Shown: positions 3,420-41,153 of the stretch, piece after piece
Layout of the letters: every line of letters starts with the position of its first letter
How positions within the stretch are numbered: position 1 is the stretch's first letter
NCBI GenBank assembly: GCA_003222535.1
Contig: QHWJ01000324.1
Span: forward strand, 1-41,156
Reading direction: 5' to 3'
DNA length: 41,156 nt
DNA from: Acidobacteriota bacterium
Lineage (GTDB): Bacteria > Acidobacteriota > Vicinamibacteria > Vicinamibacterales > CAVVIG01
Made by a program: the position numbers and the translations under genes
Notes under the pieces: model-generated
What the model was told of the DNA's origin: nothing
Database searches by the model: none
Seen by the model: the letters and a program-made list of their open reading frames with translations, nothing else

Positions 3420-4475
3420 ATGCCCGTGCGGATCGTGGAAGACCCCGTCGAGGATCCGAGCTGGTCCGCGCTATTGGACCGGCATCCCGCGGCTTCGGTC
3501 TTTCACTCGCCCGGCTGGCTCAGCGCGCTACGCCAGACGTATGGGTACGAGCCATTCGTGGTGACCACATCGCCGGGCCCGACGTTGGAGAACGGGGTGG
3601 TGGTCTGCCGCGTCAGGGGTTGGACGTCGCGCCGGCTCGTGTCGCTGCCCTTCTCGGATCATTGCGACCCGCTCGTGGATGGGTCGGACGATCTGTCTGA
3701 GATACTCGCGCTCCTCGCCGGCGAGGCGCGGACGGCCAGCTGGCGCTCCGTCGAGTTGCGCCCCCGAGCCGTCGCCGGGCAGGCCTTCGAGGTGGCCGCT
3801 CGGGCCTGTGGGCTGAAGCCGGGCGGCGAGTACTGCTTGCACAGGGTCGACCTGCGGGCCGAGGCCACGGAGATCTTTCGACGATTCCACCCGTCCAGCA
3901 CGCAGCGGGCCGTTCGCCGTGCCGAGCGCGAGGGCGTCACGTACGAGGCGGGGACGTCGAGCCGATTGCTCACCAGCTTCTATGGACTGCTGCGACTGAC
4001 TCGTCGCCGCCACGGTTTACCGCCGCAGCCTCTCGCGTGGTTTCGCAACCTGGTGACGTGCCTGGGCGACCGCGTGTTGATCCACGTCGCGAGCAGGGAC
4101 GGCCAGCCGATCGCGAGCATCCTGACGCTGTCGTTCAAGAACACGCTGTCTTACAAGTACGGCGGATCGGACGCGTCGCTTCACCGATTGGGCGGCATGC
4201 CCTTTCTGTTCTGGCGGGTGATTCAGGATGCGCAGGCGCGCGGGTTCGTGGAGCTGGATCTGGGGCGGTCGGATGTCGATCAACCAGGGCTGGTCGCGTT
4301 CAAGGAGCACCTCGGCGCAACGCGTTCGATGCTGACTTACTACCGCTACCCCGAGAGACAGGTCGACGCGGGGCGCAGCGACTGGATGTCCCGCGCGGCC
4401 CACGGGGTTCTCGCGCATCTGCCCGATGCGACGCTGGACCTTGCCGGGCGGCTGCTCTACAAGCATCTCGGTTAG
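3420..4475 (+). CDS. FemAB/GNAT-superfamily acyltransferase, EPS-associated
   Basis: A 351-residue protein of the FemAB-like/BioF2-like GNAT group often found next to exosortase-linked EPS genes. An N-terminal half begins HPAASVFHSPGWLSAL. A basic helix with HPSSTQRAVRRAEREGV follows at about residues 158-174. The C-terminal GNAT half carries IASILTLSFKNTLSYKYGGS and LDLGRSDVDQPGLVAFKEH. FemAB relatives transfer aminoacyl groups, from aminoacyl-tRNA, to cell-wall precursors. The EPS members are thought to decorate sugars, but their donor is not firmly known. No signal peptide is seen; it is probably cytoplasmic. ATG 3420 follows a 188-base gap, so it may start a transcription unit. The next gene begins about 20 bases after its stop. 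Confidence 0.8.
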   Translation: MPVRIVEDPVEDPSWSALLDRHPAASVFHSPGWLSALRQTYGYEPFVVTTSPGPTLENGVVVCRVRGWTSRRLVSLPFSDHCDPLVDGSDDLSEILALLAGEARTASWRSVELRPRAVAGQAFEVAARACGLKPGGEYCLHRVDLRAEATEIFRRFHPSSTQRAVRRAEREGVTYEAGTSSRLLTSFYGLLRLTRRRHGLPPQPLAWFRNLVTCLGDRVLIHVASRDGQPIASILTLSFKNTLSYKYGGSDASLHRLGGMPFLFWRVIQDAQARGFVELDLGRSDVDQPGLVAFKEHLGATRSMLTYYRYPERQVDAGRSDWMSRAAHGVLAHLPDATLDLAGRLLYKHLG

Positions 4476-15152: not shown

Positions 15153-17048
15153 ATGTGCGGCATCGCCGGCCAATTCAATTTTGAACGTCTCGAACCGGTC
15201 GAGCCAGACATTATTCGTCGAATGGCTCGCTCGATTGCTCATCGCGGGCCGGACGATGAGGGCTATTTCTTGCGCGGTCCGCTCGGGTTAGGTTTTCGAC
15301 GGCTGTCCATCATCGATCTCGCTGGCGGCCATCAACCCATGTCCGACCGAGAGCAGACGGTGTGCGTGATCTTCAACGGCGAGATTTACAACTTCAAGGA
15401 GTTACGCGCCGAGCTCGAGCAGCACGGCCACGCGTTTCGCACCCGCTGCGACACCGAGGTGATCGTTCATGGGTACAAACAATGGGGCCCGGCTGTTTTT
15501 GGCAGACTGAACGGGATGTTCGGTCTCGCGAGTTGGGATGTCGAAAGGAGACGCCTCGTCGTCGCTCGGGACGCAATGGGCATCAAGCTCGTGTACTACA
15601 AAATAGCGGCGGGACGGCTGACGTTTGGGTCAGAAATCCGTGCGCTGTTGGCCGCCGAGCCCACTTTGCCCGACGTCGATCCTACGGCTCTGAACTTGTT
15701 CCTGAAATTTCGCTACACACCGTCGCCCCTCACGATTTTCAGGGGCATTCGAAAGCTTGCTCCGGGAACGATGCTGGTCGTCGAACACGGAAAGTGCACC
15801 GAGGCACGGTGGTACGATTACACGCCAGTCCCGTTTCCCAAGAGCAAGAGCGAGGAAGAAGCGACGAACGAGCTGCTGGACCTTTACAAAGGTGCGGTCA
15901 AGCGGCATCTGCTGAGCGACGTTCCTGTGGGCATCCTTCTCAGCGGGGGGCTCGATTCCGGGCTGCTGCTCGCGCTCATGCAGGAACATGGACGCCAGTG
16001 GCCTGCTTACACAGTCGGCTACGGCAAGACCTTCGAGGACGACGAACTGGCCGACGCCGCCGAATCGGCGGCCCTGTTGGGTGCCCGTCATGTGCCAGTG
16101 CAGCTCGATCGCAGCGAATTCGAACGGTCGTTACCGAGCATCGTCAGCAGCCTCGAGGAGCCGATCGCCTCATCGTCGATCGTGCCGATGTACTTCGTGT
16201 GTCGACGAGCACGCGAAGACGTCAAGGTGGTCCTCGTCGGCCAGGGACCCGATGAGCTGTTCTGCGGCTACAAGCGCCACCTCGGTATCCATTACGGCGA
16301 CGCGTGGCGAATGCTCCCGCACCCGGTCCGTCAGGCGATCGGGTCTGCCGTCAAGCGGCTGCCGCGCAATGAAACCGCGAAACGAGGCATTTACGCGCTC
16401 GGGATCCAAGATCCGCTCGCACGATTCGAGCATGTCTTCTCGCTCGCGCCGGCCGAACGGATAGCCGGGTTGTTTCGCAGCGGGCCGCCAGCAAATGCCC
16501 TCGGTCACGTGGAATCGTGGACAGCACTTCTGCGGGAAACCGAGTATCTGGACGAACTCGGCTGCTTCCAGCACCTCGAAATCCGATCCTCGCTGCCGGA
16601 CGAACTGCTGATGTTCGCTGACAAGCTCTCGATGGCGCATGGCCTGGAAGTGCGCGTGCCGTATTTGGATAGGACTGTCGTGGAGTTCGCCGAACGTCTG
16701 AACGTGAGCATGAAAATCCGCGGCCGACGTGGTAAATGGCTGCACAGGGAAGTGTGCAAGCGCTTCTTGCCAGCCGCTCTTCTCAAACGTCAGAAGCGGG
16801 GATTCGCCGTGAATGTCGTCGATCAGTGGTTCCAATCATCCACGAATAGCACCTTGTCGGAGCTACTCCTCGATCGAACGTCCATCATGTTCGAGTTGCT
16901 CGACCCAGAGCCGGTACGACTGTTGCTCGAGGATCATCGAGCCGGCAAGGACGACAACCACAAGCTGCTCTTCAGTCTCTCGATGTTTGAGCAATGGTTG
17001 CGCGGTATTTACTCCGCCCCGGACGTCAGCGCTGCCGTAAATCAATAG
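15153..17048 (+). CDS. Glutamine-hydrolysing asparagine synthase family, EPS-associated amidotransferase
   Basis: A 631-residue two-domain amidotransferase. MCGIAGQF places the glutaminase nucleophile Cys2 right after the start, and SIAHRGPDDEG, FNGEIYNFKEL and TRCDTEVIVHGY complete the class II glutamine site. The synthetase domain has the pyrophosphate loop ILLSGGLDSGLLLAL, and LADKLSMAHGLEVRVPYLD-like residues appear near 520 (FADKLSMAHGLEVRVPYLD). Ammonia from glutamine is passed to an adenylated carboxylate. Exosortase-linked EPS clusters commonly contain such genes, where amidation of uronic acids is suspected. The length matches typical AsnB-like EPS proteins (about 630). A second, cysteine-less relative lies at 19379. 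Confidence 0.92.
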   Translation: MCGIAGQFNFERLEPVEPDIIRRMARSIAHRGPDDEGYFLRGPLGLGFRRLSIIDLAGGHQPMSDREQTVCVIFNGEIYNFKELRAELEQHGHAFRTRCDTEVIVHGYKQWGPAVFGRLNGMFGLASWDVERRRLVVARDAMGIKLVYYKIAAGRLTFGSEIRALLAAEPTLPDVDPTALNLFLKFRYTPSPLTIFRGIRKLAPGTMLVVEHGKCTEARWYDYTPVPFPKSKSEEEATNELLDLYKGAVKRHLLSDVPVGILLSGGLDSGLLLALMQEHGRQWPAYTVGYGKTFEDDELADAAESAALLGARHVPVQLDRSEFERSLPSIVSSLEEPIASSSIVPMYFVCRRAREDVKVVLVGQGPDELFCGYKRHLGIHYGDAWRMLPHPVRQAIGSAVKRLPRNETAKRGIYALGIQDPLARFEHVFSLAPAERIAGLFRSGPPANALGHVESWTALLRETEYLDELGCFQHLEIRSSLPDELLMFADKLSMAHGLEVRVPYLDRTVVEFAERLNVSMKIRGRRGKWLHREVCKRFLPAALLKRQKRGFAVNVVDQWFQSSTNSTLSELLLDRTSIMFELLDPEPVRLLLEDHRAGKDDNHKLLFSLSMFEQWLRGIYSAPDVSAAVNQ

Positions 17049-17050
17049 CC

Positions 17051-18031
17051 ATGAGGAGTGAACCATCGACACAAATGTCTATCACCTATGTGGAGCGATT
17101 TGACAACGGTCACTGGATCAAAGTCCCATCAGTTGATATCGACGGCATAACCACCGTAGTCACGGGGAGCTGGCTCAAGCGCGCCGCCATAGACGCCGAG
17201 GAGTGCGGTGAAACGGAACTACCGGAACCGCAGACCTACATAGACAGACTTCAAAAGTATCGAGCTCACGGTTTAGTTGCAGACATGTTCACCTTCGCGC
17301 AGAAACTTCCCTGCACGGATAGAAAATATTCCTACCCGATGGAACGCGAGGGCGTCGCGGCGATTCGAATGACCACTTTCTCAAAGTGGTGGGATCGACT
17401 TCCGCAAGTGAGCCGCAAGAATGTTCGACGCGCGGCGAAGCGTGGTGTCGAAATCTGCGTCAAGAGCGTGGACGACGACCTTGTTCGCGGAATTGTCGAC
17501 ATCAACAACGAAACGCCGATCCGGCAGGGTAAGCAGTTCACGCATTACGGCGAACGCTTTGACCGAGTGAAGACAGACTTTCTCGCCTTCAGCCATAGAA
17601 GTGACGTCATCTGTGCGTATGTAGGCAGGGAGTTGGTCGGCTTGACGAAGATTATTTATTGCGGCGAAGTGGCAGCGATCATGAAGCTTCAAACGAAAGT
17701 GAGCCAAGCAGACAGGCGACCTGCGAACGCTCTCATTGCAGGAGCCATCGAGCATTGTTCCGAAAAGCGTGTTTCGTTTGTGACGTATGGCCTTTATCGT
17801 TACGGAAACCAAAGCTGGACGTCCTTGATGGAGTTCAAAGCGAGACATGGCTTCGAGGAGATCGTCGTGCCGCGGTATTTCGTGCCCTTGTCGGTCAAAG
17901 GCATCGTCACGTCTCGTCTGAAGCTGCACAGGGGTATCGTTGGCATTCTGCCCTCTGGAGTGGTGCAGGTTGGTCGAACTCTCAGGTCTCGCTGGACGTC
18001 GGGTCTTTTAGCCGGTGTAGCTCAACGCTAG
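17051..18031 (+). CDS. FemAB/GNAT-like transferase overlapping a tRNA-like sequence
   Basis: About 326 residues. LPQVSRKNVRRAAKRGVEI is the basic helix characteristic of FemAB-like/GNAT EPS transferases. AYVGRELVGLTKIIYCGEVA and ANALIAGAIEHCSEKRVSFV look like the GNAT beta-strands and cofactor helix, and SLMEFKARHGFEEI like the final motif. It may add an acyl or aminoacyl group to a sugar. Base composition looks a little less GC-rich than its neighbours, hinting at separate origin. ATG 17051 or 17075 can start it. Its last seven codons (18011-18031) are the first 21 bases of a tRNA-Thr-like sequence, so the present C-terminus may have been created when that sequence was inserted or recombined. 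Confidence 0.7.
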   Translation: MRSEPSTQMSITYVERFDNGHWIKVPSVDIDGITTVVTGSWLKRAAIDAEECGETELPEPQTYIDRLQKYRAHGLVADMFTFAQKLPCTDRKYSYPMEREGVAAIRMTTFSKWWDRLPQVSRKNVRRAAKRGVEICVKSVDDDLVRGIVDINNETPIRQGKQFTHYGERFDRVKTDFLAFSHRSDVICAYVGRELVGLTKIIYCGEVAAIMKLQTKVSQADRRPANALIAGAIEHCSEKRVSFVTYGLYRYGNQSWTSLMEFKARHGFEEIVVPRYFVPLSVKGIVTSRLKLHRGIVGILPSGVVQVGRTLRSRWTSGLLAGVAQR

Positions 18032-18086
18032 AGCAGCCGAAATTGTAATCGGCAGATGGTGCGTTCAAGTCCTCCCGCCGGCTCCA
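18011..18086 (+). tRNA. Degenerate tRNA-Thr(UGU)-like sequence
   Basis: Seventy-six bases fold as a tRNA closest to bacterial tRNA-Thr with anticodon UGU. The acceptor stem GCCGGTG/CGCCGGC is intact with one G-U pair, the D stem is GCTC/GAGC, the anticodon stem is GCCGA/TCGGC, and TTCAAGT is the T loop. CCA is encoded. Departures: the D loop (AACGCTA) lacks the conserved GG; eight bases (AATTGTAA) rather than seven lie inside the anticodon stem; the T stem GTGCG/CCTCC has two mismatches. These faults suggest a pseudogene, an integration scar or an RNA with a special, non-ribosomal use. It overlaps the end of the FemAB-like gene. No integrase is nearby. Confidence 0.6.
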
Positions 18087-18114: not shown

Positions 18115-19362
18115 ATGCCCTCGTCACGCGTGAACTCACTCAGAATGGATACCCGGGTCGCTTTGCTTACGGGTGGCACTGACAAACCGTACGCGCTGGG
18201 ACTGGCCTCTGCTTTGGCCGCTCAGCGCGTTCAGGTCGAGTTCATAGGTAGTAATGAGCTGGACTGCCCGCAGGTACGGGCGATTCCGGGATTGGTTTTC
18301 CTAAATCTTCGGGGCGATCAGCGCGAGGAAGTGCCTTTTGCCGGCAAGCTCGTGCGGGTTCTTGTCTACTACGGTCGACTTGTAAGGTATGTGGCGACCG
18401 CAAAGCCAATGATTCTGCACATCCTGTGGAATTCAAGGTTCGAGGTGTTCGACCGAACCGTGCTAATGGTGTACTACCGGCTTCTGGGGAAGCGAGTCGT
18501 CCTGACCGCGCACAATGTGAATGGTGCTGCACGCGATGATAAGGACGGGTGGGCCAATAGGCTGTCACTTCGGATTCAATATCGTCTCTGCGATCACGTA
18601 TTCGTGCACACTGATGCGATGAAGCGGGAGCTCGTCGCGGCATTCGGTGCGAGGGAGCAGCGAGTGACGGTGATTCCGTTCGGGATCAACGACACGATGC
18701 CGCACAGTGAATTGAAGCCAGCCGCTGCGAGGCAGAGGCTCGGAATGGCAGTGAACGGGCGGGCGGTGCTCTTCTTCGGCCAAATTGCGCCGTACAAAGG
18801 ATTGGAGTACCTGATTGCCGCAGTAGCTGTGCTCGCGAAAACTGGCGAAGACGTTCGCCTAATCGTTGCGGGGAGGGTCAAGCGAGGGAGCGAGGGATAT
18901 TGGGGAAGTATCCGACGCTCTATCACGGACCTTGGCATCGAGGACCTCGTGGTCCAGAAGATCCGATTCATTCCCGACGACGAGGTCGAGACCTATTTCA
19001 AGGCCGCCGATGCCGTCGTCATTCCGTATGTGGACATTTTCCAGAGCGGGGTCCCGTTTCTGGCATTTAGCTTCGGCCTGCCCGTCATTGCGACGGATGT
19101 TGGGTCGCTTCGTGAGGATGTGACCAGCGAGACCGGCTTATTGTGCAAGCCGAAGGATCCAGCGGATCTGGCGCGAGTCATTGCGGCCTTCTACCGGAGC
19201 GCGTTGCACCGGGAGCCGGATCGAGCGCAAGAACGCATCCGCGGGCTCGCGGCGGAGAGGCACTCATGGGAAACGGTGGTTGACCGAACCAGGGCTGTTT
19301 ACGCAAGTCTCGCAGCCGACGGTCGGAGCCCACATATCTTTGGTTCGCGTACGGGGCCGTAG
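18115..19362 (+). CDS. Glycosyltransferase family 4
   Basis: A 415-residue GT-B enzyme. VALLTGGTDKPYALGLASAL opens the N-terminal domain, and VVLTAHNVNG and HVFVHTDAMKREL are acceptor-domain signatures shared with many EPS GT4 proteins. The donor domain has VLFFGQIAPYKGLEYLIAAV and, near the end, FQSGVPFLAFSFGLPVIATD for the nucleotide-sugar site. ATG 18115 is the first start after the tRNA-like sequence; ATG 18145 (MDTRVALLTGG) fits the family's usual N-terminus better. It acts at the cytoplasmic face of the membrane on lipid-linked sugar. The donor is unknown. Confidence 0.88.
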   Translation: MPSSRVNSLRMDTRVALLTGGTDKPYALGLASALAAQRVQVEFIGSNELDCPQVRAIPGLVFLNLRGDQREEVPFAGKLVRVLVYYGRLVRYVATAKPMILHILWNSRFEVFDRTVLMVYYRLLGKRVVLTAHNVNGAARDDKDGWANRLSLRIQYRLCDHVFVHTDAMKRELVAAFGAREQRVTVIPFGINDTMPHSELKPAAARQRLGMAVNGRAVLFFGQIAPYKGLEYLIAAVAVLAKTGEDVRLIVAGRVKRGSEGYWGSIRRSITDLGIEDLVVQKIRFIPDDEVETYFKAADAVVIPYVDIFQSGVPFLAFSFGLPVIATDVGSLREDVTSETGLLCKPKDPADLARVIAAFYRSALHREPDRAQERIRGLAAERHSWETVVDRTRAVYASLAADGRSPHIFGSRTGP

Positions 19363-19378
19363 CGGCCAACCCATCGCC

Positions 19379-21259
19379 ATGCCAGGGATAGCTGGAATCA
19401 TCAGCCACGACCCGCCAGCGGACTGTCGTCGGCTCGTGACACACATGCTTCGAACCATGATGCACGAGCGCTTTTACGCGTCCGGAGCCTGCTTTGCGCC
19501 GGAAATTGGCGTATACGCGGGGTGGGTGGCTCATCCCGGTTCGTTTGCGGCGAGGGAGTCCAGTCGGGGCGCAGTCCAGAAGATCGGACTAGCGCTTGCG
19601 GGAGAGTGCTTTGAGGGGCAGAGCCTGCCCGATCCGTCCGCGGACCGCGACAATCAGAGACATTCCGGCAGCTCGGTGTTGGCGCTCTATGATCGGCTCG
19701 ATGAGCAATGCATCGCCGACCTGAACGGCCTTTTCTGCGGCCTGATCCTCGATCGCTCCAAAAGGCGGGCGCTCCTATTCAACGATCGCTATGGGCTCGA
19801 GCGCATCTACGTTCATGAAACCGAGCAGGCGACGTATTTCGCCAGCGAAGTGAAGGCTCTGCTGCGAGTTGTGCCAACGCTGAGGGTATTTGACGACCAG
19901 GCTGTCGCCGAGTTCTTGACGTTCGGGTGTCCCCTTGAAGGGAAAACGCTCTTTCGAGGGATCAAGAGCCTCCAAGGAGGGTCTCTCTGGTCCTTTGACG
20001 GCGGTTTATGCCGGAAAGCGCGGTATTTCGAGCCCGCACAATGGGAGTGTCAACCACTGCTGACACCGCGAGCCTTCGAAGCTGAATTCCAGGAGCGTTT
20101 CAAGAAAGCTCTCCCTCGATACTTCCGAGGCGAACCCAGGATCGGAGTGTCACTGACCGGCGGCCTCGATACGCGGATGATCATCGCGTGTCTGCCAGCT
20201 CTCGCGAGTCGTCCGCTCTGCTACACATTTTCGGGCCGGGAGGGGGACACGCTCGACGCGCGCATCGCGGCGCGTGTAGCCGCGGCCAGCGGCCTGGAGC
20301 ATCGGGTTCTGCGCATCGCCGAAGACTTTTTGTCGGAGTATGGTGCTTACGTCGACCGAACGGTGTACATCACCGATGGGTGTTCGGGGGCGCTGGGAGC
20401 TCATGAGATCTACTTGAACGGCCTGGCGCGAGAATCGGCGCCGATACGATTGACCGGTAATTTCGGCGGTGAAGTGCTGCGTGGCGTGTCGACATTCAAA
20501 CCGATGGGATTGTCACGCGAGTTGATCCATCCGGATTTCCATCACCGGATCGACACGGCTGCAGGCCGCACCTCCGGAATCGTCGGATCGGCGGTGACGT
20601 CCGCGGCGTTCCGTGAAATTCCATGGAATTTGTTCGGCACGATGGCAGCAGCAAGATCGCAGGTTGTGTTTCGTACGCCGTACCTCGACAACGAGCTCGT
20701 CTCGCTGGCGTACCGAGCGCCGGCGCGAGTGCGACAGTCCTCTGGTACCGCGCTACGTTTGGTGCGAGAACACCAGCCATGCCTCAGTCACATCCCGACC
20801 GACCGGGCTGTGACGCTCGACGGCCGGGGGATCGCGTACATGCTGAAGCGGTTGGTCGCTGAAGTCACATTCAAGCTCGACTATTTCCACAAAGAAGCGC
20901 TGCCGCAACGCCTGATGCGGTTCGATGCAGCAATTGGCGCTCTCGCGCGTTTCGGAGTATTGGGCCTGCATAAGTATCTGCCTTACCGGCTCTGGTTTCG
21001 CAGGGATTTGGCGGGCTACGTCAATGGCGTGCTTACCGATTCGGCATCGACGCGCCTGCCGTACTTGAATCAGCGATTTCTGACAACCCTGGCGCACGAC
21101 CACGTGGCTGGGAGGAGGGACTACGTCCGCGAAATCAATGCGGTCGTCACGCTGGCTGCTGTGGATCGGCTCCTCCTGCGTGGCTGGGCAGAAAGAGAGA
21201 ACTGTGAGCGTGATGTAGCGTGTGATGAAGGGACGGGTGCGGAATGCCTCCCTCGCTAG
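19379..21259 (+). CDS. Asparagine-synthase-like protein lacking the glutaminase cysteine
   Basis: A 626-residue relative of asparagine synthase. The N-terminus reads MPGIAGIISHD: proline replaces the nucleophilic Cys2 that every working glutaminase needs, and the glutamine-site NGE motif is altered to AGE (ALAGECFEG). The synthetase domain is better kept: IGVSLTGGLDTRMIIACL is the pyrophosphate loop with S-to-T changes, followed by YTFSGREGDTLDARIAARVA. Beta-lactam synthetase and other ATP-using relatives also lost the cysteine, so it may adenylate a carboxylate and use another nucleophile, perhaps an amine on the glycan. ATG 19379 is the start; the open frame upstream only overlaps the GT4. 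Its end overlaps the ligase start by 16 bases. Confidence 0.8.
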   Translation: MPGIAGIISHDPPADCRRLVTHMLRTMMHERFYASGACFAPEIGVYAGWVAHPGSFAARESSRGAVQKIGLALAGECFEGQSLPDPSADRDNQRHSGSSVLALYDRLDEQCIADLNGLFCGLILDRSKRRALLFNDRYGLERIYVHETEQATYFASEVKALLRVVPTLRVFDDQAVAEFLTFGCPLEGKTLFRGIKSLQGGSLWSFDGGLCRKARYFEPAQWECQPLLTPRAFEAEFQERFKKALPRYFRGEPRIGVSLTGGLDTRMIIACLPALASRPLCYTFSGREGDTLDARIAARVAAASGLEHRVLRIAEDFLSEYGAYVDRTVYITDGCSGALGAHEIYLNGLARESAPIRLTGNFGGEVLRGVSTFKPMGLSRELIHPDFHHRIDTAAGRTSGIVGSAVTSAAFREIPWNLFGTMAAARSQVVFRTPYLDNELVSLAYRAPARVRQSSGTALRLVREHQPCLSHIPTDRAVTLDGRGIAYMLKRLVAEVTFKLDYFHKEALPQRLMRFDAAIGALARFGVLGLHKYLPYRLWFRRDLAGYVNGVLTDSASTRLPYLNQRFLTTLAHDHVAGRRDYVREINAVVTLAAVDRLLLRGWAERENCERDVACDEGTGAECLPR

Positions 21260-33500: not shown

Positions 33501-34448
33501 GTGACGAAACGCGAGCCAACGAAATCCGGGGAAGAAGCCCTGGCGAGCTCAGTCATCGGCGAGGGTACTGGAGCATGGGCGACGTGGCGAAGACTGCCAC
33601 GTCCGGAGCGGCTGCGAATCAGCGGGGGGTTTGGCTGGATCGTTGTGGTCACGCTGGCCTTCGTTCAGCCGCTCACCAGGCTGATGCTGCATGCCGCCCA
33701 GAGCGAGTTGCATTCCTACATCCCGCTGGTGCCGCTCGTCGCCTGTTACCTGCTCTTCATCCAGCGAAGGACGCTCTTGGCTGCCTGTCGGAGTTCGATT
33801 GGCGGAACGGTGGTGATGGGCGGCATCGGCGTGGCCGCACTCTCCGCAGCGATTGCATTCCGTGGAAGTCTGAGCATCAACGATGGCCTCGCCCTGATGG
33901 CGCTCGCCTACGTGAGTTTCGTCGCGGCTGCTGGATTTCTGTTCCTGGGGTCGAAATGGATGGCCGCCGCTGCCTTTCCCGTCGCGTTCCTGATCTTCAT
34001 GGTTCCGCTGCCGGACGGCGTAGTGAGCTGGCTGGAGACGGCTTCAGTGCTGGCCTCGGCGGACCTCGCAGCCTTGTTTTTCAACATGACGGGTACTCCG
34101 CTCCTGCGCGACGGCACGGTATTCGCGCTGCCCACCATTGTGCTCAGGGTCGCCCGGGAGTGCAGTGGGATCCACTCCAGTTGGGTGCTCTTTATCACGA
34201 GCCTGGTGGCTTCCCATCTCTTTCTCGAGAGCCCGTGGCGAAGAATCATCCTGGTGGCCTTCGTGATTCCGCTCGGGATTGTGCGGAACGGATTCCGGAT
34301 TCTGGTCATCGGGCTGCTCTGCGTAAATGTCGGCCCGCACATGATCGACAGCATTTTTCATCGCCGGGGTGGCCCCTTCTTTTTCCTGCTGTCTCTGGTG
34401 CCGCTGATCGTGTTCATGGCGTGGCTGCGGCGCCAGGAGCAATGGTGA
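33501..34448 (+). CDS. Exosortase (XrtC-like) transpeptidase
   Basis: A 315-residue polytopic membrane protein with about eight helices. VARECSGIHSSWVLFITSLV holds the catalytic cysteine (Cys221), IVRNGFRILVIGLLC the conserved arginines (Arg262, Arg266), and FHRRGGPFFFLLSLV the conserved histidine (His287). Together these are the cysteine-arginine-histidine set of exosortases. They cleave proteins ending in PEP-CTERM-like signals and attach them to the EPS or envelope. The only sorting-signal protein visible in the window ends VPDGGSTVTLLG, the VPDSG type read by exosortase C, so XrtC is the likeliest subfamily. There is no fused EpsI domain. GTG 33501 starts it. It overlaps prsK by seven bases. 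Confidence 0.9.
   Translation: MTKREPTKSGEEALASSVIGEGTGAWATWRRLPRPERLRISGGFGWIVVVTLAFVQPLTRLMLHAAQSELHSYIPLVPLVACYLLFIQRRTLLAACRSSIGGTVVMGGIGVAALSAAIAFRGSLSINDGLALMALAYVSFVAAAGFLFLGSKWMAAAAFPVAFLIFMVPLPDGVVSWLETASVLASADLAALFFNMTGTPLLRDGTVFALPTIVLRVARECSGIHSSWVLFITSLVASHLFLESPWRRIILVAFVIPLGIVRNGFRILVIGLLCVNVGPHMIDSIFHRRGGPFFFLLSLVPLIVFMAWLRRQEQW

Positions 34449-36543: not shown

Positions 36544-36547
<4 letters not shown>
34442..36547 (+). CDS. prsK: PrsK-type membrane sensor histidine kinase
   Basis: A 701-residue sensor kinase of the exosortase-linked PrsK group. The N-terminal 300 residues are about eight hydrophobic helices (FFLLPFAAGFFSLLLAVVSL). A GAF-like domain follows (RLCAVSAKLISETFDALSV), then the kinase core: FFVHDLKNAAASLNLML with phospho-accepting His498, VVTNLVLNARDAL (N box), VLSVVDNGCGMSQ (G1), and LFRPFQSTKKKGLGIGLFQS (F/G2). 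It would phosphorylate PrsR. ATG 34442 overlaps the exosortase stop by seven bases. A longer open frame back to 33575 only overlaps the exosortase in another frame. Its signal is unknown. Confidence 0.92.
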
Positions 36548-37899
<1,352 letters not shown>

Positions 37900-37971: not shown

Positions 37972-38607
37972 TCAGTTCTTGCCGAATCTCCGGCGAAGCA
38001 CGGCCAGACCAAGAAGGACCGAACCGAGCAGCGTAACCGTCGAGCCGCCGTCAGGCACAGATCCCGTCGTCGCGTCTATCGGACCCGTGGCTCCGTTGGT
38101 TGTGTTGATGACGCCTGCGACGAAAACGTTACCGTTACTATTCGCGGCGGTTAAGTCGGCAATTGTCGCATTGGCAACATGGAACAGGATATCGGTGGAG
38201 AATGAACCGGGATTACCGTTCGCGCATGAGGCGCAGTTGATCCCGAAGGCGAAGCTTCCAGTACCGTCTCCATTGAAAGACCCGCCGACTGCGACCAAAG
38301 CCGGGCTGTGGGGGTCGATGGTGATATCCGTCAGGGCGACGTTGGTACCGTTGAACTTGAAGGCCAGAAAGTCTGTGGAACCGTCCTTGACGAAAGCATA
38401 CGGAGGATTATTCAGCCCCACTGTAATATCAACGGTCGTCCCGGTCTGAGTCAGCGTCACATCGCCAAACACCGTGCCAGGCGCCCCGCAGCCAGCCGCG
38501 TTGGTGCAGTGGTTACTGGTCAAGTTATACTGCATCGAGAGCGCGTTTGCCGTCTGGCTCACAGCCAAACCCACCAGGCAGAAGAGAATTACCAAGTATT
38601 TCTTCAT
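37972..38607 (-). CDS. VPDSG-CTERM sorting-signal secreted protein
   Basis: A 211-residue secreted protein. MKKYLVILFCLVGLAVSQTANA is a signal peptide. The mature part is rich in glycine, threonine and asparagine, with a beta-sandwich look and four cysteines (HCTNAAGCG, NCASCANG) that may pair outside the cell. The C-terminus from about residue 184 is the sorting signal: VPDGGSTVTLLGSVLLGL, then AVLRRRFGKN, i.e. motif, hydrophobic helix and basic tail. The exosortase at 33501 is the likely processing enzyme. An AAGGAG ribosome site (38615-38620) lies seven bases before the ATG, and a sigma-54 promoter lies 66 bases upstream. The function of the mature domain is unknown. Confidence 0.88.
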   Translation of the reverse strand: MKKYLVILFCLVGLAVSQTANALSMQYNLTSNHCTNAAGCGAPGTVFGDVTLTQTGTTVDITVGLNNPPYAFVKDGSTDFLAFKFNGTNVALTDITIDPHSPALVAVGGSFNGDGTGSFAFGINCASCANGNPGSFSTDILFHVANATIADLTAANSNGNVFVAGVINTTNGATGPIDATTGSVPDGGSTVTLLGSVLLGLAVLRRRFGKN

Positions 38608-39713: not shown

Positions 39714-41153
39714 TTACAGGTCCGGCGGGATGCCGGTCGAACCCATCACCAGGCGCACCGCCGACTCGATCGAGGCGATTTCGCCGTCACTGAGCTCGCT
39801 GAAGTGCTCACGCTTGTTGTGGGCGAGCGTGCCCTTGTTTTGCAGGATCAACCGCACCAACAGCGACGCCCTCCTATCGGGCATGTCGACGATCTCCATC
39901 GTCCGCCGCACCGCGCGATCGAAGACGTTCAAGAAGCCGATCTCTTCCTCCAGGTCGTGACGAATCGCCTGCTCGACGCATCCGTACAGGTACTCCGCCA
40001 ACGGGGTCGCGTCCCAATATCGATACAACGGCGCGGTGGCGTTGTGAACCATCATGCGTCCATCGGGATCGAGCGTGTATTGGATGAACGGGCTGATCAG
40101 CGAGGAGTAGGCGGCGAGCGCGCGATCGTAACTGCGTCGATCGCGAAGCATCACCGCCGACACCGGGAGCAACAGCTCTCGGGGCGTGAATTCCAAGCGA
40201 GCCAGCAGGTGATGAATCAGGAAGCGATGAATGCGTCCGTTTCCGTCTCCAAAGGGGTGAATGAACACAAATCCGAATGACGCCGCGGCGGCCGCGCACA
40301 CCGGATCGAGCCTGGACGGATACAGCCGGCGGAGCATGTCCATCCAGCCCTGCATGAGCGGCCGGACATCTTCCGGTTTCGGGCACACGTAGTGCACGTG
40401 TTCGCTGAAATCGCGACGGGTCTGGCCGACGAAATTCTGAACCGATCGCCAATCGACCTCGGCGTAGCGAGGATCGACGATCGCGTTTTGCAGCTGAATG
40501 AAAGACGTGGCATCCAGAGCGTCGAAATCGGCCGCGGTCGAGAGTGCCGCCACAAAACGTTCGGAGCGATCGGCGCCTGGAGATTCACCTTCGATCGCGT
40601 ACGAGGATTTCGTCTCTTTCGTGTAGAGATAGTGGACGGCGCGCGCCAGAACGCTCGGGTCACAGGTTTCGACGAGCGCGCGCGCCTGTTTATCCAAGCC
40701 GGCCTGCATGAAACGGGAGAGCGCGTCCGTGCGCCGGATCAAAGGGCAATACTTGGCGTTGCCGAGCAGGTTGTCGTTCAAGCGCTGGCGCCGAACTCGA
40801 AAGGGCGCCCCCGTCATGTGCCGCTTCGAGTCGAGAAGGTCCGCATAGCCGGTGGGCGGCACGTCGTCCACGTCCAGAGTGGTTGCAGTCAGGAGCTCGT
40901 ACAAGTACCAGGCCCGTCGCGCAAAGACGCCGGTGTGTTCCGTTCGAACCCAGGTCTCCAGGAGTGTCCGGTCCAGCGCAGAGAACACGGCGTGTAGTAC
41001 CGCCAAGTCCACAGGTTCGTGGCGCATCGCAAATTTGAGATGACCGACGAGACTCTTTGGAGCGTAGAGGGCTGGGTATTGCTCGAAAATGACCCCCTCA
41101 GCGATCCGCGTGCGACGAACTCCAGCGATCACCTCGGAGCGCGTGGCCGGCAA
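39714..41153 (-). CDS. Fic-domain protein (probable AMP-transferase), maybe partial at its start
   Basis: A 479-residue or longer Fic protein. The active-site loop is FVFIHPFGDGNGRIHRFLIH (HPFxDGNGRxxR intact), with the catalytic histidine. ETKSSYAIEGESPGADRSE carries the (S/T)xxxE(G/N) inhibitory helix motif upstream of the Fic core, so it can self-inhibit (class II arrangement). Fic enzymes attach AMP, or other nucleotides, to target proteins. No antitoxin gene is seen within the window. The start is TTG at 41153, only three bases from the window edge, so the true start may be further out. It lies outside the EPS cluster and is probably unrelated to it. Confidence 0.88.
   Translation of the reverse strand: MPATRSEVIAGVRRTRIAEGVIFEQYPALYAPKSLVGHLKFAMRHEPVDLAVLHAVFSALDRTLLETWVRTEHTGVFARRAWYLYELLTATTLDVDDVPPTGYADLLDSKRHMTGAPFRVRRQRLNDNLLGNAKYCPLIRRTDALSRFMQAGLDKQARALVETCDPSVLARAVHYLYTKETKSSYAIEGESPGADRSERFVAALSTAADFDALDATSFIQLQNAIVDPRYAEVDWRSVQNFVGQTRRDFSEHVHYVCPKPEDVRPLMQGWMDMLRRLYPSRLDPVCAAAAASFGFVFIHPFGDGNGRIHRFLIHHLLARLEFTPRELLLPVSAVMLRDRRSYDRALAAYSSLISPFIQYTLDPDGRMMVHNATAPLYRYWDATPLAEYLYGCVEQAIRHDLEEEIGFLNVFDRAVRRTMEIVDMPDRRASLLVRLILQNKGTLAHNKREHFSELSDGEIASIESAVRLVMGSTGIPPDL

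Follow-up and report, generated by a model that had tools for sequence, protein, structure and literature searches.

A tRNA-Thr-like gene overlapping the end of a GNAT-type gene in an Acidobacteriota polysaccharide cluster: a candidate dedicated threonyl donor

The tRNA-like element at the FemL 3' end

The window examined in this study is the whole 41,156-nt stretch of contig QHWJ01000324.1 of an Acidobacteriota bacterium (assembly GCA_003222535.1). Its subject is a non-canonical tRNA-Thr-like gene lying across the 3' end of a GNAT-superfamily gene, here called FemL, in a cluster that encodes glycosyltransferases, amidotransferases, a Wzy-like ligase, an exosortase, and a PEP-CTERM-type response regulator. 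An earlier note on this DNA had proposed that the element could be a dedicated, non-translating aminoacyl donor for decorating the exopolysaccharide (EPS). Our findings supported that proposal, as the element is linked to one FemL clade, is conserved beyond the neighboring codons, and has kept its threonine identity while features related to the ribosome were lost.

The Rfam tRNA model RF00005 matched positions 18011-18083 of the forward strand at 39.3 bits (E 5.5e-5 over the window), above the gathering score of 29 bits. This score was the lowest among the 41 tRNAs of its genome, and a run of ARAGORN did not call the element at 18011-18086. As a single strand, the element folded at -27.6 kcal/mol (z -2.1), better than shuffled sequences. 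The 76-base cloverleaf described in the earlier note, with its UGU anticodon, intact acceptor and D stems (7 and 4 bp), and encoded CCA, was recovered in full, as were the D-loop without GG and the eight bases within the anticodon stem, which form an 8-nt loop (Table 1). The two T-stem mismatches that had been counted arose because the normal register was imposed; in the register common to the relatives (4 bp, a bulged pyrimidine, and 1 bp), a single mismatch, U.U, was left. The first 21 bases of the element were indeed the last codons of the gene, whose TAG lies at 18029-18031. Normal tRNA-Thr genes for UGU, a presence that had been left to be checked, as well as for CGU and GGU, were found in the host genome, and the element diverged from these throughout. 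The U73 of the element was not odd, since all three normal tRNA-Thr genes of the host have U73.

Table 1. Coordinates of the tRNA-like element, its parts, and the adjacent genes in the window
Feature	Positions	Strand	Evidence or remark
Non-canonical tRNA-Thr-like gene (UGU), 76 nt including encoded CCA	18011-18086	+	RF00005, family model R1, 12 intact homologues adjoining FemL
Acceptor stem, 5' strand GCCGGUG; 7 bp with CGCCGGC at 18076-18082	18011-18017	+	
D arm, stem 4 bp, 7-nt loop AACGCUA, G18G19 lost	18020-18034	+	
Anticodon arm GCCGA-AAUUGUAA-UCGGC, 8-nt loop; anticodon UGU at 18044-18046	18036-18053	+	
T arm with bulged C (18062): GGUG-C-G / UUCAAGU / C-CUCC	18058-18075	+	
Discriminator U73 and encoded CCA, same as in the host's normal tRNA-Thr	18083-18086	+	
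FemL, GNAT-superfamily protein, 326 aa; alternative start 17075	17051-18031	+	TAG stop = tRNA positions 19-21
Asparagine-synthase-like amidotransferase asnB1	15153-17048	+	Related to TIGR03108 of XrtA/PEP-CTERM systems, 479 bits (cut-off 817)
GT4 glycosyltransferase, between tRNA and asnB2	18115-19362	+	
Asparagine-synthase-like amidotransferase asnB2, usual downstream neighbor of FemL	19382-21259	+	

Relatives and linkage to one FemL clade

Twelve more intact copies were found in the genomes of related soil bacteria, all Acidobacteriota, and in every case the copy adjoined the 3' end of a FemL homologue, so that the 13 intact copies comprised those of the window, G231, G609, G925, G776, G975, G808, G897, G783, G796, G814, G802, and G768. 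A further copy, also at FemL, was interrupted by assembly Ns in G890. The tRNA was located exactly at the FemL 3' end in G609 and in G231, which belongs to another family than the window's genome. A covariance model, R1, built from the RNAs of the window, G231, and G609, scored these three members at 99-103 bits (window, 99) and ordinary tRNAs at no more than 77 bits. Searches with R1 returned only the two FemL-linked copies of G231 and G609 from the 237 genomes of their family that were searched and only the window copy from 162 genomes of the window's order. A search with FemL of 389 genomes of G231's class yielded ten more intact copies, the G890 copy, and two relics, all at FemL. A scan of 396 genomes for the D-loop pattern found, besides the window, G231 alone without GG. 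Similarity searches of phage and plasmid DNA gave matches of ~74-80% identity only, one set of which was annotated as tRNA-Thr, and a search of plasmids with FemL gave no match.

In the FemL tree, the tRNA bearers fell into a single clade of 17 rows (support 100/99), made up of 14 Thr-like cases, 2 swapped cases, and 1 loss, and the tRNA was present at none of 26 FemL loci outside that clade. The FemL homologues of the window's own order had no tRNA, which first resembled a refutation and was explained by their position outside the tRNA-bearing clade. A single clade with one loss, that of G597, indicated one origin kept over a long divergence and not many independent events. Aligning the homologous clusters, a comparison proposed earlier because loss or random decay would mark a relic, gave 12 intact copies in one FemL clade, which is not a pattern of loss or decay.

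Most relatives have asnB2 directly after FemL and the tRNA, unlike the window with its intervening GT4 gene. We concluded that the tRNA follows FemL and not asnB2, because asnB2 was not beside FemL and the tRNA in G814 and G796. A second FemL was present in tandem in the operons of G768 and G796, where the tRNA was found solely at the 3' end of the clade member; the second copies without a tRNA lay at L203:8308-9189 and L212:2397-3251.

Conservation, covariation, and features kept or lost

Pairwise identity among the 13 intact RNAs was 73-93% (mean 86%), versus 30-57% (mean 38%, near saturation) at the third codon positions of their FemL genes, while the FemL proteins shared 39-75% amino acid identity (mean 54%). 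The RNA was better conserved than FemL codon positions 1 and 2 in 78 of 78 pairs; the window RNA reached 91% identity to the others, with its FemL just 39-48% identical. When no structure was supplied, RNAalifold returned a cloverleaf with a T-stem of four pairs, a bulged pyrimidine, and one pair. This bulged register paired 98.2% of cells versus 90.8% in the normal register, and a compensatory change on both sides of the T-stem, A-U to G-C in five members, provided the covariation for which the fold was to be inspected according to the earlier note. The U.U of the window copy is located at this covarying pair.

The members were compared with 139 other tRNAs found in the loci examined. An uninterrupted 5-bp T-stem occurred in 0 of 13 members versus 130 of the 139, as all 13 had the bulged pyrimidine; GG near positions 18-19 occurred in 3 versus 135, and U33 in 7 versus 132. 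The window copy lacked GG and retained U33. Wobble base 34 was U, C, or A, giving the anticodon AGU in two members. G35 and U36 were invariant (13/13), and acceptor pairs 1-5 (including G1-C72 and C2-G71), U73, and CCA were likewise invariant in the 13 members. We take the exact threonine identity positions to be those of E. coli tRNA-Thr, namely G1-C72, C2-G71, G35, and U36. Bacterial threonine identity is located in acceptor-stem pairs and anticodon bases (PMC9976931). Judged from these sequences, the kept and lost features fit a tRNA under selection for its charging by threonyl-tRNA synthetase (ThrRS) and released from decoding.

Overlap with the FemL stop codon

At 14 of 14 loci examined, FemL had no stop ahead of the tRNA. 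Its stop lay either within the tRNA (positions 8-10, 19-21, or 36-38) or shortly past the CCA, by 5 nt at six loci. Given these stop positions, excising the tRNA would deprive the FemL message of its stop, and one transcript could yield the enzyme or the donor tRNA, hardly both, which would amount to a built-in balance. The overlap may serve for control or may simply have resulted from the way the tRNA arrived. An extended -10-like box, TGGTATAAT, was observed 16-19 nt upstream of the tRNA at L092 and L177. It is formed by conserved Trp-Tyr-Asn codons of FemL and could act as a local promoter or have arisen by chance; because the box was found at these two loci only and was not general, no promoter is claimed.

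Apparent change to a tRNA-Cys-like gene

The Thr-like copy was ruined in the sister genomes G787 and G910, with a broken acceptor in one and a missing T-arm in the other, and both genomes had a tRNA-Cys-like gene directly upstream of FemL (L201:8275-8347, plus strand, in G787; L205:13495-13568, minus strand, in G910). Relative to the normal tRNA-Cys of G787, pair 2-71 of this gene was flipped from G2-C71 to C2-G71, matching the Thr-like RNAs, and the flipped pair is the one that serves as an identity element for FemX (PMC4052509). The arrangement resembles a change of donor from a Thr-like to a Cys-like tRNA, of which these sequences are suggestive.

FemL and the gene neighborhood

Standard Pfam and NCBIfam scans gave no match for the window FemL, which had a borderline PF13480 match (E 0.001, 19.6 bits; cut-off 22) and no match to the FemABX family PF02388. 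Its homologues matched PF00583 (Acetyltransf_1) in 29 of 39 cases and PF13480 (Acetyltransf_6) in 25 of 39; weak FemAB matches occurred in 9 of 39 (best E 0.0014), and some homologues weakly matched TIGR03019 and MprF-type profiles. An AlphaFold model of FemL was built from three sequences. With this poor model (pLDDT 43.5), the leading Foldseek hits were the FemX proteins of Weissella and Staphylococcus, with Sba18/Sbb17, which are aminoacyl-tRNA-dependent synthases, and MprF-type domains also high in the list. VIA-align gave Z ~12 across residues 122-249, corresponding to a GNAT fold. On these results, FemL is a GNAT protein that appears to resemble aminoacyl-tRNA transferases. Its earlier description as FemAB/GNAT-like was thus right as to GNAT, while its likeness to FemAB is distant and confined to the GNAT fold. 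A genuine FemAB-type protein, related to TIGR03019 (XrtA/PEP-CTERM FemAB), is encoded at 3420-4475, 14 kb from FemL, and no tRNA adjoined that gene.

Elsewhere in the cluster, the exosortase (33501-34448) was closest to the VPDSG type (XrtC) at 241 bits, below the cut-off of 300. A VPDSG-CTERM protein is encoded near it (37972-38607, minus strand), and a response regulator with the PEP-CTERM box lies at 36544-37899. In the protein at the window end (39714-41153, minus strand), a Fic-like HPFGDGNGRIHR motif was spotted by eye in the translation.

Proposed mechanism and alternatives

We propose, with a probability of about three in four, that the element serves FemL as a dedicated threonyl donor that avoids the ribosome, and that FemL would put the threonine on a polysaccharide precursor; that it is a conserved and functional RNA of which translation makes no use is highly probable. 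Transcription of the tRNA would run through the 3' end of FemL or begin within it, and the usual tRNA enzymes would excise the RNA. As pairs 1-72 and 2-71, G35, U36, and U73 are kept, the cell's ThrRS is predicted to charge it with threonine. The bulged T-stem, the loosened contact between D-loop and T-loop, and the unreliable U33 would keep the tRNA off EF-Tu and the ribosome. FemL, with its GNAT fold most like that of aminoacyl-tRNA-dependent transferases, would take the threonine from the tRNA and may link the threonine carboxyl to an amino (or hydroxyl) group of an exopolysaccharide precursor.

Several observations weigh against this proposal. The clade FemL of G597 has no tRNA nearby (L214:9330-9560, minus strand), which means that not every genome strictly requires the tRNA. 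The window copy itself has the U.U pair, its sole T-stem mismatch in the bulged register of the family, and an anticodon loop of 8 nt. The AlphaFold model is poor and confident for just one GNAT core, and VIA-align placed CoA-dependent GNATs level with or above FemX, so FemL could use acyl-CoA. The polysaccharide as acceptor is suggested by the gene neighborhood only, and the donor change is suggestive only, because it was a single event in two sister genomes. The 120-nt gap ahead of asnB2 in G597 might contain a decayed trace of the tRNA.

An unlikely alternative is a cis-acting tRNA mimic, a fold that is not released from the mRNA and regulates FemL or the gene after it, for example by binding ThrRS like the E. 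coli thrS operator or as a processing or stability site. The element overlaps or abuts the FemL stop in every member and lies within the operon, and both tRNA-like operators (PMC9976931) and regulatory pseudo-tRNAs (PMC3399842) are known. However, neither a ThrRS-binding anticodon mimic nor a processing site needs the acceptor stem, U73, and CCA, which were almost fully kept, the downstream gene varied among loci, and the upstream location of the replacing tRNA-Cys-like gene indicated that the position is not fixed. FemL might instead acylate the amino group of Thr-tRNA with acyl-CoA, making the charged tRNA the acceptor and not the donor. GNAT folds usually use acyl-CoA, and the CoA-dependent GNATs fitted the FemL model no worse than FemX did, but we consider this quite improbable given the polysaccharide cluster setting and a Foldseek order headed by FemX; a special tRNA within EPS operons would then be unnecessary.

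There is very little chance that the element is an extra translating tRNA-Thr, placed in the cluster by accident. Such a gene would retain the threonine anticodon and acceptor features and exceed the gathering score of the Rfam tRNA model, as the element does (39.3 versus 29 bits), but an ordinary extra tRNA-Thr was rejected on conservation, structure, and FemL linkage: the T-stem bulge was present in 13/13, G18G19 was lost in 10/13 and U33 in 6/13, AGU appeared in two, normal Thr tRNAs were present, and the link to a single FemL clade was strict. Slighter still is the case for a pseudogene or integration scar, which the earlier note had regarded as the simpler alternative. The low tRNA score, the silence of ARAGORN, and the glycosyltransferase inserted just downstream, compared with relatives, would fit a scar. 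This alternative was nevertheless not tenable given the conservation in homologous loci, and a relic was rejected on the RNA identity versus that at third codon positions near saturation, with compensatory changes, across 13 genomes. Genuine decay was seen only in G787 and G910, the genomes with the Cys-like gene, and no att-like repeat was found where one was sought around the element.

Comparison with known systems

The proposed threonyl donor resembles the non-proteinogenic tRNA-Gly of S. aureus, the donor for FemX/FemA/FemB wall bridges, in being an extra isoacceptor beside a full normal set. In the staphylococcal wall tRNA-Gly, G18G19 was replaced and the T-stem pairs used by EF-Tu were altered, with charging identity kept (PMC4052509, PMC9976931), and the element shares these traits. 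Unlike that tRNA, with its weaker T-stem pairs, the element has a conserved T-stem bulge, has lost U33 in many members, and overlaps the end of a putative transferase gene within an exopolysaccharide cluster; its predicted amino acid is threonine, or cysteine in one lineage. FemL shares a GNAT core with FemXWv, VlmA, DhpH-C, PacB, Orf11, Sba18/Sbb17, and MprF; the window FemL has no significant FemAB Pfam match. The review PMC12945691 nowhere mentions a tRNA gene. The tRNA-Other (pseudo-tRNA) of Bacillus cereus is similarly a tRNA-like gene outside translation that is tied to cell-surface traits (PMC3399842). That gene was interpreted as belonging to a larger regulatory RNA, whereas the acceptor end and threonine identity of the element are strongly constrained and the element travels with one enzyme. 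The E. coli thrS operator likewise places a fold with a threonine anticodon inside an mRNA; it has no acceptor arm (PMC9976931), unlike the element, in which acceptor pairs 1-5, the discriminator, and CCA do not vary.

That aminoacyl-tRNA can serve outside the ribosome, and that special donor tRNAs exist, is already known. In the open-access literature, we found no description of such a tRNA in an EPS cluster, none of a polysaccharide cluster in which the donor tRNA is encoded within, and overlaps, the gene of its transferase, and nothing joining Acidobacteria, exosortase, EPS, and tRNA. We tentatively suggest, at somewhat less than even odds, that the cluster encodes its own amino-acid donor: a tRNA rendered unfit for translation, placed over the end of the transferase gene, inherited with the enzyme across several families, open to replacement by a tRNA for a different amino acid upon a change of product, and with the stop overlap balancing enzyme against donor.

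Aminoacyl-tRNA feeds cell-wall, lipid, and antibiotic pathways, and how it is diverted from protein synthesis is mostly unclear. A natural tRNA that retains its charging features but not those related to the ribosome, that is associated with one enzyme family, and that has relatives, losses, and an apparent amino-acid change for comparison makes this question testable. The finding also offers a natural orthogonal tRNA/transferase pair, and it shows that a low tRNA score within a biosynthetic cluster is no reason to dismiss a sequence as a pseudogene. For the Acidobacteriota, it points to polysaccharides decorated with amino acids.
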